Part shown: positions 13,933-19,563 of the stretch, one piece after another | Position numbering within the stretch: position 1 is the first letter of the stretch | How the letters are laid out: the number at the start of each line of letters is the position of its first letter | Source of the DNA: Dyella sp. 2HG41-7 | Lineage (GTDB): Bacteria > Pseudomonadota > Gammaproteobacteria > Xanthomonadales > Rhodanobacteraceae | Length of the DNA: 64,000 nucleotides | Assembly: GCF_021390675.1 (NCBI RefSeq) | Contig: NZ_JAJEJV010000004.1 | Coordinates: 1,364,001-1,428,000, forward strand | Reading direction: 5' to 3' | The notes under the pieces: model-generated | What the model was told of the DNA's origin: nothing | Databases searched by the model: none | Seen by the model: the letters and a program-made list of their open reading frames with translations, nothing else | Position numbers and translations under genes: made by a program

Positions 13933-15039
13933 TCAGCGCCCGACGCACGCCTCGCGCAGCAGGGCAAGCACATCCGCTTCGTCGACACCCGAGACGATTT
14001 CCGCGCGCCCGATGCCGCGCCACAGAATCAGCCTCAACGTGCCGGCCGTGTTCTTCTTGTCCAACCGCATCAAAGCCAACAGATGATCGGCGTCGAAGCC
14101 GGCTGGAACGGTGGTCGGCAACCCGATCGCCGCCAACAGGCCCACAAGGCGCTGCGTGTCGTCAGTCGCGCTCATGCCGAGCCGTTCGGACAGCCGCGCT
14201 GCCAGCACCATGCCTACCGCGACACCTTCGCCATGCAGCAAGGTCGTGTATCGACCGGCCGTTTCCAGCGCATGCCCGAACGTATGCCCGAGGTTGAGCA
14301 GGGCGCGCTCGCCTTGTTCGGTTTCGTCGCGCGCCACGACGCCGGCTTTGTAGCGAACCTTGGTCGCAATCGCCTGGATAAGCGCTGTTTCTTCGCGTGC
14401 GGCCAAGGCGGCGGCGTTTTGCTCCAGCCATCCGAAGAACGGCGCATCACCGATCGCCGCGCCTTTGACGACTTCCGCCATGCCGGCGCGATATTCGCGT
14501 GCGGGCAGGCTATCCAGCGTACCGATATCGGCCACGACCGCGCGCGGCTGGTGAAACGCGCCGACGAGATTCTTGCCAGCAGGTAGATTGACGCCGGTTT
14601 TGCCGCCGACAGATGAATCGACCATCGACAGCAAGGTGGTTGGCATCTGAATGAAATCGATCCCTCGCATCCAGCATGCTGCCGTGAAGCCCGCAAGATC
14701 GCCCACAACGCCGCCGCCCAATGCGATCACGCAGGCATCGCGCGTTGCGCCGAGCTTGCTCAGCGCTTCCAGCGCCGAACCGACATTGGAGAAACTTTTG
14801 TGCGCTTCGCCGTCGTCGAGTAGGAACGAGGACCAGTGCAAACCATCCAGTCCACGCGCAACCCGCTCCAGATACAACGGCGCGACCGTGCTGTTGCTGA
14901 TTACCATCGCATGTTTCCCGCGCAGCGCAGCGCGCCAGCGTGCGTGATCGTCCAACAAGCCGCGGCCGATCCAGACGGGATAACTGCGTTCGCCGAGCGT
15001 AACGGTGATGGTTTCTTGCGGCGTGGTCGTGCTCATCAT
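13933..15039 (-). CDS. aroB: 3-dehydroquinate synthase
   Basis: This ~368-residue NAD- and metal-dependent enzyme converts DAHP to 3-dehydroquinate, the second shikimate step. It has ALGGGVVGDLAGF for NAD binding, a lysine in GGKTGVNLPAGKN, and metal ligands in RAGMAEVVKGA, NLGHTFGHALE and LLHGEGVAVGM. The start is ATG 15039 or the adjacent 15036. The frame stays open through the neighbouring repeat to ATG 15078, giving a possible N-terminal extension encoded by the left terminal repeat. That extension is not part of the enzyme fold. No clear Shine-Dalgarno precedes either start. aroK lies upstream across the 288-bp element. Confidence 0.96.
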   Translation of the reverse strand: MMSTTTPQETITVTLGERSYPVWIGRGLLDDHARWRAALRGKHAMVISNSTVAPLYLERVARGLDGLHWSSFLLDDGEAHKSFSNVGSALEALSKLGATRDACVIALGGGVVGDLAGFTAACWMRGIDFIQMPTTLLSMVDSSVGGKTGVNLPAGKNLVGAFHQPRAVVADIGTLDSLPAREYRAGMAEVVKGAAIGDAPFFGWLEQNAAALAAREETALIQAIATKVRYKAGVVARDETEQGERALLNLGHTFGHALETAGRYTTLLHGEGVAVGMVLAARLSERLGMSATDDTQRLVGLLAAIGLPTTVPAGFDADHLLALMRLDKKNTAGTLRLILWRGIGRAEIVSGVDEADVLALLREACVGR

Positions 15040-15045
15040 GCGGTT

Positions 15046-15333
15046 GGGGTGCTCTGACTCATTTTGCGTAGGCGTCATGATGTCCAGAAGGCTCGCACGC
15101 AGTGTTGCGCGGCGTAGGGCAGACTGGCCGTCTGTTCAAGGCGCGCAACACTGCGTGCGAGCCTTCTGGGCATCACCCCACTTAGTATATCAATGCGATG
15201 GGGCCGGCCCTGTTTGTCCGCATACCTTCGGTCCGTTGGTTCAACAGACGGCCAGTCTGCCATCACCAACGGCCCTGTGGTCTGCGAACAAACAGGGCCG
15301 GTGACGCCTACGCAAAATGAGTCAGAGCACCCC
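15046..15333. repeat. Cloverleaf-type inverted-repeat element, copy 1 (288 bp)
   Basis: Perfect 32-bp terminal inverted repeats (15046-15077 and 15302-15333) read GGGGTGCTCTGACTC at the outer end. Hairpin A follows at once (15078-15110 with 15143-15175; 33 bp with one T-G pair, the inner 26 bp perfect), with apex CAGAC-TGGCC-GTCTG at 15120-15134. A central stem CCCC/GGGG (15176-15179, 15200-15203) closes a 20-nt AT-richer loop. Hairpin B (15204-15222 with 15283-15301, one mismatch) holds an inner 8-bp stem (15233-15240, 15265-15272) and apex CAGAC-GGCCA-GTCTG (15245-15259). No base is unpaired at the four-way junction. The right repeat contains the aroK stop codon; the left repeat ends 6 bases from the aroB start. 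No protein-coding content is recognised. Confidence 0.9.
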
Positions 15334-15864
15334 TCGATTCCAGGTTTTATCGATCAATGTGAAACAACGCTCGCTCGCCAAGGCAACGCCTTCGTGCTCG
15401 TGGCCGGGCGGAATGATGAGATCGGCGATCTCCTCATAAAGCGACGTGCGTGCGGCGGCCATGGCTTCCAGTTTGCGATGGCGATCAGCGTCGGCGAGCA
15501 ACGGGCGCGACGTATCGTGTGCAAGTCGATGCAATTGCAGCGACACGGTGGCCTGCAACCACACCACATAACCGCGCTCACGCAGGCTGCGGCGATTGTC
15601 CGGGTCGAGCACCGCGCCCGCGCCGCTCGCCAGCACCACGCCGCTGCGATCGCTACATTCGTCGAGCAACGCGCGCTCGCGACGGCGAAATCCGGCTTCG
15701 CCCTCGACGTCGAAGATGGTGTTGACCGAAACGCCGGTCACGCGTTCGATTTCCTGGTCGAGATCGAGAAACGGCATGTGGTAACGCGCGGCAAGCTGGC
15801 GGCCGATCGAGGTTTTGCCGGCGCCCGTCGGCCCGATCAGAAAGAGGTTGCGCGAAGGATTCAT
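15322..15864 (-). CDS. aroK: Shikimate kinase
   Basis: This 180-residue P-loop kinase phosphorylates shikimate at the 3-hydroxyl with ATP. Walker A is GPTGAGKTS near the N-terminus. The shikimate-binding FLDLDQEIE and GEAGFRRRE follow, then LASGAGAVLD (usually GGG in the family) and the lid Arg in TSRPLLAD. ATG 15864 gives the normal N-terminus (MNPSRNLFLIG). The last codons, Gly-Val-Leu-stop, lie inside the right terminal repeat of the 288-bp element, so the element appears to have supplied the present C-terminus and stop. It sits upstream of aroB on the same strand. Confidence 0.95.
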   Translation of the reverse strand: MNPSRNLFLIGPTGAGKTSIGRQLAARYHMPFLDLDQEIERVTGVSVNTIFDVEGEAGFRRRERALLDECSDRSGVVLASGAGAVLDPDNRRSLRERGYVVWLQATVSLQLHRLAHDTSRPLLADADRHRKLEAMAAARTSLYEEIADLIIPPGHEHEGVALASERCFTLIDKTWNRGVL

Positions 15865-15912
15865 GTGAGGATAGTAGCAGGGGAACGAAATCGAGCCCCT
15901 ACAGGTGAATGG

Positions 15913-16776
15913 ATGTCCGAACGTGTTTTGATAGCCGGTTGCGGCGATCTGGGCGAGCGTGTGGCGCGTTCGCTGCTGGCGCGCGGCGATGAGGTTTATG
16001 CGATTCGCCGGCATCCGCCGGAAGATGGTGGAGCGATCCGTTGGCTGTCGGCGGACCTGACCCGGCCTGAGACTTTGATCGCGTTACCGAGGCACATCAC
16101 CCAACTTGTCTTTGCGCCGGCGCCGGACGCGCGCCAACAGGAACGCTATCGCGCCGTATTTCTCGACGGATTGCGCAACGTGCTCAATGCGCTCGACGCA
16201 TCTGAACTACGCAGGTCGTTGTTGGTTTCCTCCAGCGCCGTTTATGGCGAACACGGCGGCGATTGGGTGGATGAGTCCACGCCGCCCGCACCGTTGAGCT
16301 TCAACGGCGAGGTCTTGTGGGAGGCGGAGCGAATGCTGGCGGCGCGCGCGACGGAGTCGGTCGCGTTGCGGCTAGCGGGGCTTTACGGGCCAGGACGCAC
16401 GCAGTTACTCGACCGATTGATGGCGGCCCAGGCGAGGGCGCCGCGCACGGCACCGCATTGGGCCAATCGCATCCATGTGGATGATGCGGCCGCGGCGATC
16501 GCGCATCTGTTGGCGTTGCCCCACGCGGAGCAGGTTTATGTCGGTGTTGATGACACGCCTTTGCCGCTGCACGTTTTCTACGACGATCTCGCCGCAAAAA
16601 TCGGTGCGCCGCCCGTACCCGAAGGGCCGGCGCCCACCGCAGTGGGCAGCAAGCGGCTCAGCAATGCTCGGCTTCGAGCCTCCGGCTTTTCCATGATGTG
16701 GCCCGATGCGCGCGACGGTTACGCGCAGATGCTAAGAAGCATGCAATCGTCCATCTTGCCGGCGCGTCAGGATTGA
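15913..16776 (+). CDS. NAD-dependent epimerase/dehydratase-like SDR protein
   Basis: This 287-residue protein starts MSERVLIAGCGDLGERVA with a Rossmann loop at 9-14 (GCGDLG). It then shows the extended-SDR order: LLVSSSAVYGEHGG with the active-site Ser and Tyr, and LRLAGLYGPGR near the middle. The following E-A-E-R segment lacks an obvious YxxxK spacing. It resembles the YeeZ-type single-domain epimerase-like proteins whose substrate is unknown. The start was set at ATG 15913; upstream open frame runs through the repeat element and antisense to aroK and is not coding. It diverges from aroK and overlaps the tail of the convergent regulator by 10 bases. Confidence 0.87.
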   Translation: MSERVLIAGCGDLGERVARSLLARGDEVYAIRRHPPEDGGAIRWLSADLTRPETLIALPRHITQLVFAPAPDARQQERYRAVFLDGLRNVLNALDASELRRSLLVSSSAVYGEHGGDWVDESTPPAPLSFNGEVLWEAERMLAARATESVALRLAGLYGPGRTQLLDRLMAAQARAPRTAPHWANRIHVDDAAAAIAHLLALPHAEQVYVGVDDTPLPLHVFYDDLAAKIGAPPVPEGPAPTAVGSKRLSNARLRASGFSMMWPDARDGYAQMLRSMQSSILPARQD

Positions 16777-17516
16777 TTTCCGCCGGATAGCACCGACGCG
16801 ATGCTTCGGGCGTGCGTCTCGGCTGTTTGCGACGTGAGATTTTCTTCGATGCCGTATTTGATCAGGTCGGCATCGCGGGTGATGCCGAGTTTGCGCATTG
16901 CGCTCATTTTTTGCGTGCTTACCGTTTGCTTGCTGCGGTTGAGATGTTCGGCGATTTCGCTGATGGTAAATCCGGATACGAAAAGCCGCACCACTTCCAA
17001 TTCACGCGTCGACAAATGGCGTGTGCGCGATGCGGACGCACCACCGTGAATACTATGCCGGTGCACCACGGTTTCGATGCTGGGCGATAAATAGCGCTTG
17101 CCCGCAAGCGAGGCGTAGAGCGCGGTGGTGAGATATTCCAGCGAATCGGCTTTGCTTACGATGCAATTGATGTCTTGCGCAAGCAACGAACGGATCACAT
17201 TGGCGTTGTTCATCACCGTTAGGGCGATAAGGCGAATTTGCGGGTAACGCTGCTTCAGCAGTCCGAACAAGGTAATGCCGTCGCCATGGCGGCCGCCCGG
17301 CATCGCGTAATCGGAAACGATCACGTCCACCGATTGATTCTCCAGCAGATCCATCAGGGACGTGGAATTGGCGGCCGAGCCGACGATGGTCAGATCAGGC
17401 TGATCTTGGAGTTCGTGGGTGAGGCCCGCCAACAACAGCGGATGGTCGTCTGCGATAACCACGCGGATGATGCGTTCGCTGGACGGTTTTTTTTCGTTGA
17501 CCAATTTCGTGGACAT
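16767..17516 (-). CDS. LuxR/FixJ-type response regulator
   Basis: This 249-residue regulator has an N-terminal receiver domain (~17-135) with acidic pocket Asp-Asp in VVIADDHPLLL, phospho-Asp in VIVSDYAMPGG and a Lys in the VSKADS loop. A C-terminal LuxR helix-turn-helix follows at ~170-230 (LSTRELEVVRLFVSGFTISE). The receiver resembles RcsB/NarL-type regulators. No partner kinase is adjacent, so it is an orphan in this window. An A/T-rich upstream region of 300 bases with a perfect short palindrome at 17729-17743 may be its control region. Targets are unknown. Confidence 0.9.
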   Translation of the reverse strand: MSTKLVNEKKPSSERIIRVVIADDHPLLLAGLTHELQDQPDLTIVGSAANSTSLMDLLENQSVDVIVSDYAMPGGRHGDGITLFGLLKQRYPQIRLIALTVMNNANVIRSLLAQDINCIVSKADSLEYLTTALYASLAGKRYLSPSIETVVHRHSIHGGASASRTRHLSTRELEVVRLFVSGFTISEIAEHLNRSKQTVSTQKMSAMRKLGITRDADLIKYGIEENLTSQTAETHARSIASVLSGGNQS

Positions 17517-17816
17517 GATGCTGCGCAGCTCAATGAATACGGTTCGTCGGCGCTGGTGGCGCTGCGAATAAGCGGCAGCGTTGCAGCGACCTACGCTCGT
17601 GCTAAGGGAAGAGTTTCGGCGTTTGGTGTAGTGACAAAATACGTGGCCGGCCGTGTGATTTCCGTACGGCGTCGTGCGGGACTTTGCTGTGGATCGATTA
17701 TGGTCGGGCCGCCGATTCGGGCAATAGAACTTTTCCGAAAAGTATCGAGCCGATGCGGAAAGTGTCGTGTGTTGTTCGCGCGCAAGTTATGTTTGCGGCG
17801 CGCGTCGCCTAACAGA
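17517..17816. other. 300-bp intergenic region upstream of the response regulator
   Basis: No convincing gene is present; the plus-strand open frame crossing it runs antisense to both neighbours. The part at ~17630-17790 is less GC-rich than its surroundings and carries the palindrome at 17729-17743. A promoter for the minus-strand regulator probably lies here, but I cannot name a -35/-10 pair with confidence. Confidence 0.5.
17729..17743. promoter_or_regulatory. Perfect 7+1+7 palindrome, possible operator
   Basis: ACTTTTC-C-GAAAAGT is a perfect inverted repeat about 210 bases upstream of the LuxR-type regulator start, in a locally AT-richer stretch. Its symmetry fits a dimeric repressor or regulator site; the protein that might bind is unknown. 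Confidence 0.3.
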
Positions 17817-18647
17817 TCAACTGTGGTTGAGACCCAATACGCGATGATGGGTGTCGTACTCCACACAGGTATCGGCGAGGACAGGCAACGTCGCTAGTGC
17901 ATGCCGGCTGAGCCGTTCGAAGTGAGCGAGGAAGCGTTTCATGGCCTGCGCGTCCATCGCCAGCGGCGCCCCACGCGCCAGCAGCGCTTTTTCCGTTTCG
18001 CTGCGCCAGTCGCGCACGACTTCCCAATTCGGAGCTTGCAGCACGATCAGCGCATCCAGCTTGCGCCAAAGGGGTTGATAGGTGCGCAGTTGTTTGTTGA
18101 CCCAGTGGCGCCAACTTCCATCCGAGTCTTCGGTGCGTTCCAATTCGTTGACCGGTTCTTCCAGTGCGCTTTCCAGTTGCGGGCGCAGTCCCAGCGCCCA
18201 GCCTTCCACCACGACCAGACGGGGCGGTCGGGTCACGCTCGGCCATTTGGACGGCGGCATGCGCGTGTCGCGTCCCTTGTCGAAGCGCGGCCAGGTTACG
18301 GGGAATTTTTCCGAGGCGTGGGGCAGGGCAAGCAAAACCGACAGCAGCAGTTCGATCTCATGCGTGCCAGGCACGCCGCGGGTACGCAGCAAGGGGTGAA
18401 TTTGATGGGCCAGCGCCTCGCGTTCGCTGCGCGAGTAATAGAAGTCGTCCAGGGAAAGCACTTCGGTCGGCCAGTCGCGGTGCTCGGCTTGCGTTTTGAT
18501 CACACGCGCCAAGGTACTCTTGCCGCTTCCTTGCAAACCTGAGAGTCCGAGCACATACGGCCGGTGCGTTCGCGCGATGCGCCCGGCGTAATGATCCAGC
18601 AGGTGCCCGGCTAGGGCCTGATTCTGCGTGCTAGCATCATCCTTCAT
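17817..18647 (-). CDS. P-loop kinase, glycerate-kinase/YggC-like
   Basis: This ~276-residue protein has Walker A GLQGSGKST and the kinase segment LSLDDFYYSRSERE, with the conserved DDFY of uridine/pantothenate/glycerate-type kinases. VVVEGWALGLRP (Walker B-like) and a C-terminal HALATLPVLADTC helix follow. It matches the E. coli YggC / plant D-glycerate 3-kinase / yeast Tda10 group. Activity on D-glycerate is plausible but not shown by sequence alone. ATG 18647 (MKDDAS) is used; a GTG at 18674 is in frame and would add nine residues. The gene reads away from the 289-bp repeat element and pdxH. Confidence 0.83.
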   Translation of the reverse strand: MKDDASTQNQALAGHLLDHYAGRIARTHRPYVLGLSGLQGSGKSTLARVIKTQAEHRDWPTEVLSLDDFYYSRSEREALAHQIHPLLRTRGVPGTHEIELLLSVLLALPHASEKFPVTWPRFDKGRDTRMPPSKWPSVTRPPRLVVVEGWALGLRPQLESALEEPVNELERTEDSDGSWRHWVNKQLRTYQPLWRKLDALIVLQAPNWEVVRDWRSETEKALLARGAPLAMDAQAMKRFLAHFERLSRHALATLPVLADTCVEYDTHHRVLGLNHS

Positions 18648-18686
18648 CGCGACATCATGACGTGCACCTGCCACGATTCAAGCCCT

Positions 18687-18975
18687 GGGATGCTCTGATC
18701 CATTTTTCGCAGGCGTCATGATATCCAGAAGGCCCATTCGGCGTGTTGCGTGGTGCCGGGAAGACTGGCCGTCTTGCCAAGACGCGCGGCACGCCGAATG
18801 GGCCTTCTGGATATCACCCCGTCGTTTACAATCAATCTGTTGGGGCCGGCCCTGTCTGTCCGCATCCCTTCGGTCCGTCGGCTCGACAGACGGCCAGTCT
18901 GCCTTCACCGCCGTCCCTATGGGCTGCGAACAGACAGGGCCGGTGACGCCTGCGAAAAATGGATCAGATCATCCC
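18687..18975. repeat. Cloverleaf-type inverted-repeat element, copy 2 (289 bp)
   Basis: This diverged copy of the 15046 element is in the same orientation. The 32-bp terminal repeats (18687-18718 and 18944-18975) have one mismatch. Hairpin A has perfect 27-bp arms (18719-18745 with 18790-18816), and its apex is AAGAC-TGGCC-GTCTT (18761-18775). The central stem is CCCC/GGGG (18817-18820, 18842-18845). Hairpin B has 19-bp arms (18846-18864, 18925-18943; one mismatch at the same place as copy 1) with apex CAGAC-GGCCA-GTCTG (18887-18901). As in copy 1, there are no unpaired junction bases. The right repeat ends one base before the pdxH ATG. The divergent promoters for the kinase and pdxH must lie in or beside it. 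Confidence 0.9.
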
Positions 18976-19563
18976 ATGCTCAAGCCCGAGATTCTTGACA
19001 CTTTCAATACACTGCTCGACCAGGCCGTCGCCAGCGGCGACCCCGAGCCGACCGCCATGAACCTGTCCAGCGTCGATGCCGCAGGCCGTGTCAGCTCGCG
19101 CATCGTACTGCTGAAAGGGGTCGACCAGCGTGGGTTCCGCTTCTTCACCAACTACGAAAGCGACAAGGGCACGCAGCTGAACGCCCACTCGCAGGTGGCG
19201 CTGTGCTTCCACTGGAAGCGGTTGCGCGAAGGTGTGCAGGTGCGGGTGGAGGGTTTGGCGCGCAAAATGTCCGCCGAAGAATCCGATGCATACTTCGCCA
19301 CCCGTCCGCGCGGCAGCCAGATCGGCGCGTGGGCATCGCTGCAATCGCAAACGCTGCCCGCCCGCGAGACGTTCGAGCAGCGCGTGGCGCACTTCGAGCA
19401 GCAGTATGCCGATCGCGACGTGCCGCGTCCGCCGCACTGGGGCGGTTACGTGGTGGAGCCGGATATGATCGAATTCTGGTACGGCGCCAATTTCCGGTTG
19501 CACGAGCGCATGCGCTGGGATCGTCACGGTCAAACCTGGACCAGTCGGCTGTTGTACCCCTAA
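18976..19563 (+). CDS. pdxH: Pyridoxamine 5'-phosphate oxidase
   Basis: This 195-residue FMN-dependent oxidase makes pyridoxal 5'-phosphate from its amine or alcohol form. It shows SSRIVLLKGVDQRGFRFFTN (FMN/substrate site), LCFHWKRLREGVQVRVEG, ATRPRGSQIGAWASLQS and the C-terminal ERMRWDRHGQTWTSRLLYP, the intact family signature. Length is slightly short of E. coli PdxH (218) at the N-terminus, as usual in this group. ATG 18976 directly abuts the repeat element and has no visible Shine-Dalgarno. The frame is open upstream through the right terminal repeat to GTG 18943, so an N-terminal extension is possible. yjbQ follows 10 bases after the stop. Confidence 0.95.
   Translation: MLKPEILDTFNTLLDQAVASGDPEPTAMNLSSVDAAGRVSSRIVLLKGVDQRGFRFFTNYESDKGTQLNAHSQVALCFHWKRLREGVQVRVEGLARKMSAEESDAYFATRPRGSQIGAWASLQSQTLPARETFEQRVAHFEQQYADRDVPRPPHWGGYVVEPDMIEFWYGANFRLHERMRWDRHGQTWTSRLLYP

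Follow-up and report, generated by a model that had tools for sequence, protein, structure and literature searches.

A 288-nt cloverleaf-forming element at aroK-aroB of Dyella sp. 2HG41-7 is one copy of a dispersed repeat family with IS5-family ends

The cloverleaf-forming element at positions 15046-15333 of the window (the whole 64,000-nt stretch of Dyella sp. 2HG41-7 DNA analysed here) belongs to an old family of small parasitic DNA elements that is widespread in the soil bacteria Dyella and their relatives. Very probably it is a non-autonomous MITE of the Rhodanobacteraceae with the ends of an IS5-family insertion sequence. It has the features by which a MITE is recognised, namely terminal inverted repeats, dispersed copies with empty sites, no transposase gene inside and a transposon sharing its ends; the dispersal, the empty sites and the transposon back the proposal of a non-autonomous mobile unit that had been made from the letters of this locus. 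The genes on either side are taken here to be aroK and aroB, presumptive names that go back to that sequence-only reading.

Coordinates and anatomy of the element were correct as first described, as seen from RNA and DNA folding and a BLAST self-match (Table 1). The terminal repeats, reported as perfect over 32 bp, match at 100% (query 1-32 vs 257-288), and the minimum-energy fold of the window copy indeed leaves no unpaired junction bases. Folding led to a z of -21.2 as RNA and -23.2 as DNA, and dinucleotide shuffles never folded as well as the element (0/100 as RNA, 0/100 as DNA). The architecture of a terminal stem with two long arms and a linker is unusual. Of the open frames that cross the 288 nt, none is transposase-like by eye. 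In Rfam, no family exceeded the gathering threshold within window positions 14500-19500 and none matched the 15046-15333 copy; two sub-threshold microRNA matches both fall on the second copy at 18687-18975. The idea that arms A and B are inverted duplicates over their whole length was dropped, since equally good scores came from 383 of 1000 motif-preserving shuffles and the likeness is limited to the inner motif. This motif, AGACTGGCCGTCT, was also observed in short solitary matches outside full copies (G000:C4:692413-692425 and 868056-868068).

Table 1. Features of the element and its neighbourhood, in window positions; gene names are presumptive.
Feature	Positions	Strand	Remarks
aroB	13933..15039	-	probable ATG at 15039, minus strand
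Left terminal inverted repeat (A side), 32 bp	15046..15077	+	6 nt from probable aroB start
Arm A, 98-nt hairpin	15078..15175	+	inner motif AGACTGGCCGTCT at 15121-15133 (+)
Linker mini-hairpin, CCCC-20 nt-GGGG	15176..15203	+	from folding
Arm B, 98-nt hairpin	15204..15301	+	inner motif of arm A, inverted sense, at 15246-15258 (-)
Right terminal inverted repeat (B side), 32 bp	15302..15333	+	holds aroK stop codon 15322-15324 (minus strand)
aroK reading frame	15322..16014	-	last three codons and stop come from the element
Second full-length copy, 79% identical	18687..18975	+	abuts ATG at 18976 opening pdxH-like frame

The element is real; it belongs to a repeat family and is not confined to one place. 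BLAST of the window's genome gave 51 matches (17 element-length, 72-100% identity), and in some shorter copies (162-171 nt) these ends enclose a single arm. With the element as query, 15 of 16 genomes of the genus and 22 of 61 genomes overall matched, while the core as query matched 45 of 147 genomes of the family, spanning 13 of its 26 genera; plasmid and phage records gave no match. From 118 loci examined, 19 without a pair of terminal inverted repeats (TIRs) by our rule, five duplicates and five shorter than 250 nt were removed, which left a set of 89 copies (loci L001-L228), mostly from Dyella with a few from other genera. A further 50 loci, 40 from other genera and 10 with a second TIR family, were used for comparison. 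At least 25 of 29 positions of the terminal repeats are paired in 92 of 94 copies, where the finding rule already required 22.

The second TIR family encloses the same core within different ends, of the AAGGCAACGCTGAATAAGTATCGCC type, in G003, G006, G009, G015, G028 and further genera. No partner of these ends was found with a 19-nt pattern at up to one mismatch in 16 genomes, all 42 sites lying in G003, and at the 30 loci inspected no more than 97-292 nt lie between good end pairs (reading frames inspected in three). L040 and L221, and likewise L020 and L210, appear to occupy one and the same intergenic region in different genomes, with elements that differ in their TIR family.

The element ends in GGGATGCTCTGA with TA as its flank, and IS5-family transposons with matching ends occur in two relatives and perhaps in a third. 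The search for partners covered 48 loci with IS5-type transposase family matches in the genus, some of them overlapping, and used the 14-nt MITE end at up to three mismatches. Inward end pairs were detected at nine of the 48, representing five distinct transposon copies, and the other loci are without such a pair. L290, L292, L300 and L307 (G005, G003) have 0-2 changes in GGGATGCTCTGA and the flanks TTA..TAG; L295 (G011) is a transposon copy with one poor end. The open frame of L290 scores 279 bits against NF033581 'IS5 family transposase' (cut-off 140); PF01609 and a portion of PF05598 were also identified in it. In G003, a MITE end is identical over 20 nt to the end of the resident transposon, and the interior of that MITE matches the core. 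All transposon copies examined look damaged: L290 has its N-terminal domain in another frame, L292 an in-frame stop, and both L300 and L307 are truncated. As none of them looks like an intact partner, our confidence in the IS5-type MITE reading was lowered slightly. Ends near contig ends in G012 had also been considered as collapsed transposons; L246 and L248 run into element-like sequence and are probably assembly breaks.

No match to PF01609 or PF05598, the two transposase families by which absence is judged here, was found in the window's genome. It holds 80 end-like sites at up to three mismatches and none of them pairs as a transposon, since the 75 on contig C4 include no inward pair 0.7-3 kb apart and the five on C3 are too distant by position. 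An IS5-type transposase supplied in trans would have moved the copies, and the window's genome may have lost this enzyme or never had it, leaving its copies stranded.

The sites of both window copies were compared with those in relatives. At aroK-aroB, where the sequence-only reading had suggested looking for empty sites, an intact copy is present in 0 of 80 relatives, and the short interval gave no BLAST match in 80/80; a 40-nt element match at L158 lies outside this interval. In L093 (Dyella flava), what is left of a decayed element was recognised by eye in the interval that the window copy occupies; this remnant would reflect either a shared or an independent insertion. The site of the second copy is uninterrupted in six of nine relatives, contains 13-nt end-like scars in two and is not spanned in one. 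Both scars (L261 in G005 and L265 in G004) end in CATCCC, as if an element had once been present and was then deleted.

Target sites of the IS5 family are TA or YTAR, with duplication. Among 88 copies, the modal flanks are CTA or TTA to the left and TAG or TAA to the right, reflecting insertion mostly beside TA, often CTAG or TTAG. Matching flank dinucleotides were found in 30 of 89 copies (18.2 expected by shuffling) and inverted matches in 30 (19.1 expected), and the 46 copies with a non-self-complementary left dinucleotide have matching vs inverted flanks in 4 vs 4 cases. Because inverted matches are equally frequent, a true 2-bp target duplication is not separable from symmetry of the flanks. 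At the best-resolved empty site, that of the second copy, the element was inserted between T and A, and the window's genome shows no duplication there.

The placement of the element between aroK and aroB is not strictly right, as the aroK stop codon sits within the right terminal repeat; the element nevertheless separates aroK from the probable aroB ATG. The C-terminus of aroK reads NRGVL* here, with GVL* encoded by the first 12 nt of the element. In the 12 remnant-free relatives that were inspected, the C-terminus of aroK is of the NRQAA* kind, and its TGA and the probable ATG of aroB overlap. Through an in-frame ATG within the element (ORF to 15078), aroB could become longer by 13-14 residues. 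Next to the second copy, the frame opening at ATG 18976 is presumably pdxH. A 281-aa open frame (window 18718-19563) was also observed, which runs from the A side of this copy in frame through the element into the pdxH-like gene.

Among 63 cases of a gene reading into the element, the stop ends at +1 (TA plus the first G of the element) in 12 and at +12 (as in GGGATGCTCTGA) in seven, the aroK of the window being of the latter kind; these counts refer to the 89-copy set with orthologues unmerged and both sides summed by hand. Calls of gene strand near the copies relied on codon usage as learned from 11 window frames, an earlier and cruder calling having left 57 of 89 uncalled. The B-side gene points away from the element at 63 of 77 called sites (4 uncalled; 89-copy set, orthologues merged). 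This bias is absent in the 50 further loci (23 vs 26, 1 uncalled) and, as it was not replicated, no conclusion was drawn from it. In an aroK-aroB transcript, the element would fold into a long double-stranded structure replacing the stop/start overlap of the relatives, and translation of aroK and aroB would be uncoupled by it. By analogy with known families, the element RNA might offer a substrate for RNase III.

The sequence-only reading had named shared primary sequence without conserved pairing as the outcome that would speak against it. Pairing is conserved: 73 of 116 consensus pairs occur as at least two Watson-Crick types, each in at least two of the 89 copies. Pairing within vs between copies was 0.963 vs 0.787 for the terminal repeats, 0.937 vs 0.809 for arm B and 0.866 vs 0.789 for arm A. 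In the orthologous pairs L002/L031 and L033/L182, whose junctions are equal within about one base (seven other pairs with junctions that are not exact were left out), 222 comparisons gave 18 two-sided Watson-Crick changes, one other two-sided change and 15 one-sided changes, with about three two-sided changes expected under independent change by a hand estimate. From this excess in orthologous copies, pairing has therefore been kept in place after insertion. The cloverleaf shape is retained while the sequence changed.

Mismatches differ between the ends and the arms. The terminal repeats show no bias between G-T and A-C (30:29; pairs at least 80% Watson-Crick), whereas on the A-first strand the ratio is 101:20 in arm A and 30:63 in arm B. 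Mismatches of each arm were then taken on the strand that enters inward from the end of that arm (own-end strand). In the 89 copies, G-T:A-C states on this strand are 18:20 for singletons, 17:11 for states in 2-3 copies (not significantly biased) and 21:2 for states in at least four copies, or 14:2 without pairs under 80% Watson-Crick; this filter is relevant since G-U pairs on one strand are already allowed by the consensus fold. States in at least four copies are 4:3 in the terminal repeats. The 50 further loci gave 13:15 for singletons, 20:3 for 2-3 copies and 16:0 for at least four copies (8:0 after the same filter), again with 4:3 in the terminal repeats. As the copies share ancestry, the states counted here are not fully independent. 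The G-T excess on opposite strands suggests that the arms may act single-stranded, as putative RNA or DNA hairpins.

Template-switch repair of palindromes could keep the stems paired after insertion, as could selection on single-stranded hairpins, or the two together. If long palindromes self-correct by intrastrand template switching in replication, pairing would be a by-product and the element would fold without function, an account to which we give an even chance. Such a mechanism has been proposed (PMC8794818), although the part of that source consulted calls its own evidence for the maintenance of short stems less clear. The strong within-copy pairing of terminal repeats without G-T/A-C bias (30:29) and the restoration of pairing in place in orthologous copies (18 two-sided Watson-Crick changes) agree with it, but the opposite-strand wobble excess of the arms is not predicted. 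Template-switch correction thus agrees with what is seen at the ends, while in the arms the wobble excess points towards single-strand hairpins, RNA or DNA. It is conceivable, though rather doubtful, that arms and linker form a functional single-stranded hairpin module (RNA or ssDNA) for which the IS5-type ends are merely the transport. Each arm would then work on its own-end inward strand, for example as an mRNA 3'-end or processing hairpin for the gene reading in. This would explain why widely shared arm states have a G-T excess (21:2 and 16:0) that the terminal repeats lack, why the same inner motif lies in both arms in opposite sense, and why one core occurs under two TIR families. The copies share ancestry, however, and strand-biased mutation in founder copies may also have produced the excess; no significant bias is seen among states shared by 2-3 of the 89 copies (17:11), and the preference of the arms for opposite strands is inexplicable by a single transcript. 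As to the large structured RNA in the aroK-aroB transcript that had been proposed, no Rfam family matched this copy, but the strand-polar G-T excess of the arms suggests a single-strand constraint, and such an RNA may be formed. That the core is an independent module selected for its structure, with interchangeable insertion-sequence ends as vehicles and one putative hairpin function carried by the arms in opposite sense, we consider unlikely.

Movement by means of folded single-stranded DNA, which had also been proposed, was not borne out: the matching transposons encode an IS5-family DDE transposase, and PF01797 (Y1) had 0 matches in the window's genome, the one genome searched. Transposition through folded ssDNA is not needed. 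For these reasons a REP/REPIN-like element moved by a Y1 (RAYT) transposase on single-stranded DNA is highly improbable, despite the two hairpins sharing a motif in opposite sense and the many dispersed copies, as the ends match an IS5 DDE transposon instead and the arms are without detectable homology beyond the inner motif.

The preferred reading as an IS5-type MITE was compared with known systems. MITEs derived from the IS5 family share the ends, the TA/YTAR-type flanks, the lack of an internal transposase gene and the matching NF033581 transposons, but the Dyella core is not visibly a deleted transposase gene and consists of two long hairpins and a linker. Correia/NEMIS of Neisseria is likewise a small mobile repeat with a terminal stem and TA ends (PMC2229807), and its transcripts have been proposed as RNase III substrates in the sections consulted of PMC2229807 and PMC2649163. 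It differs in its ends and has a terminal stem without arms or linker, as the same part of PMC2229807 says of non-CIR repeats. CIR of Caulobacter and Brucella has two long hairpin arms and a linker, while no terminal stem is implied in the relevant section of PMC2229807; this comparison is by described architecture. RUP of pneumococcus is also a MITE tied to an insertion sequence (IS630-Spn1) by end similarity and TA targets (PMC2229807, in part), but that sequence belongs to another IS family. The Dyella family unites the terminal stem and the two arms, which the consulted part of PMC2229807 treats as separate repeat types. A limited search of the open-access literature found no published description of the element family.

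The family is a natural experiment in which two explanations for the paired stems of small mobile repeats can be told apart, as its terminal repeats behave as palindromic DNA should and its arms as single-stranded hairpins might. A structured core is common to two terminal-repeat types, and at the conserved gene pair aroK-aroB an insertion has taken the place of the stop/start overlap. If the module reading were true, a transcript from either side would meet a working hairpin first, and the element would be a mobile bidirectional device for RNA processing or mRNA protection.
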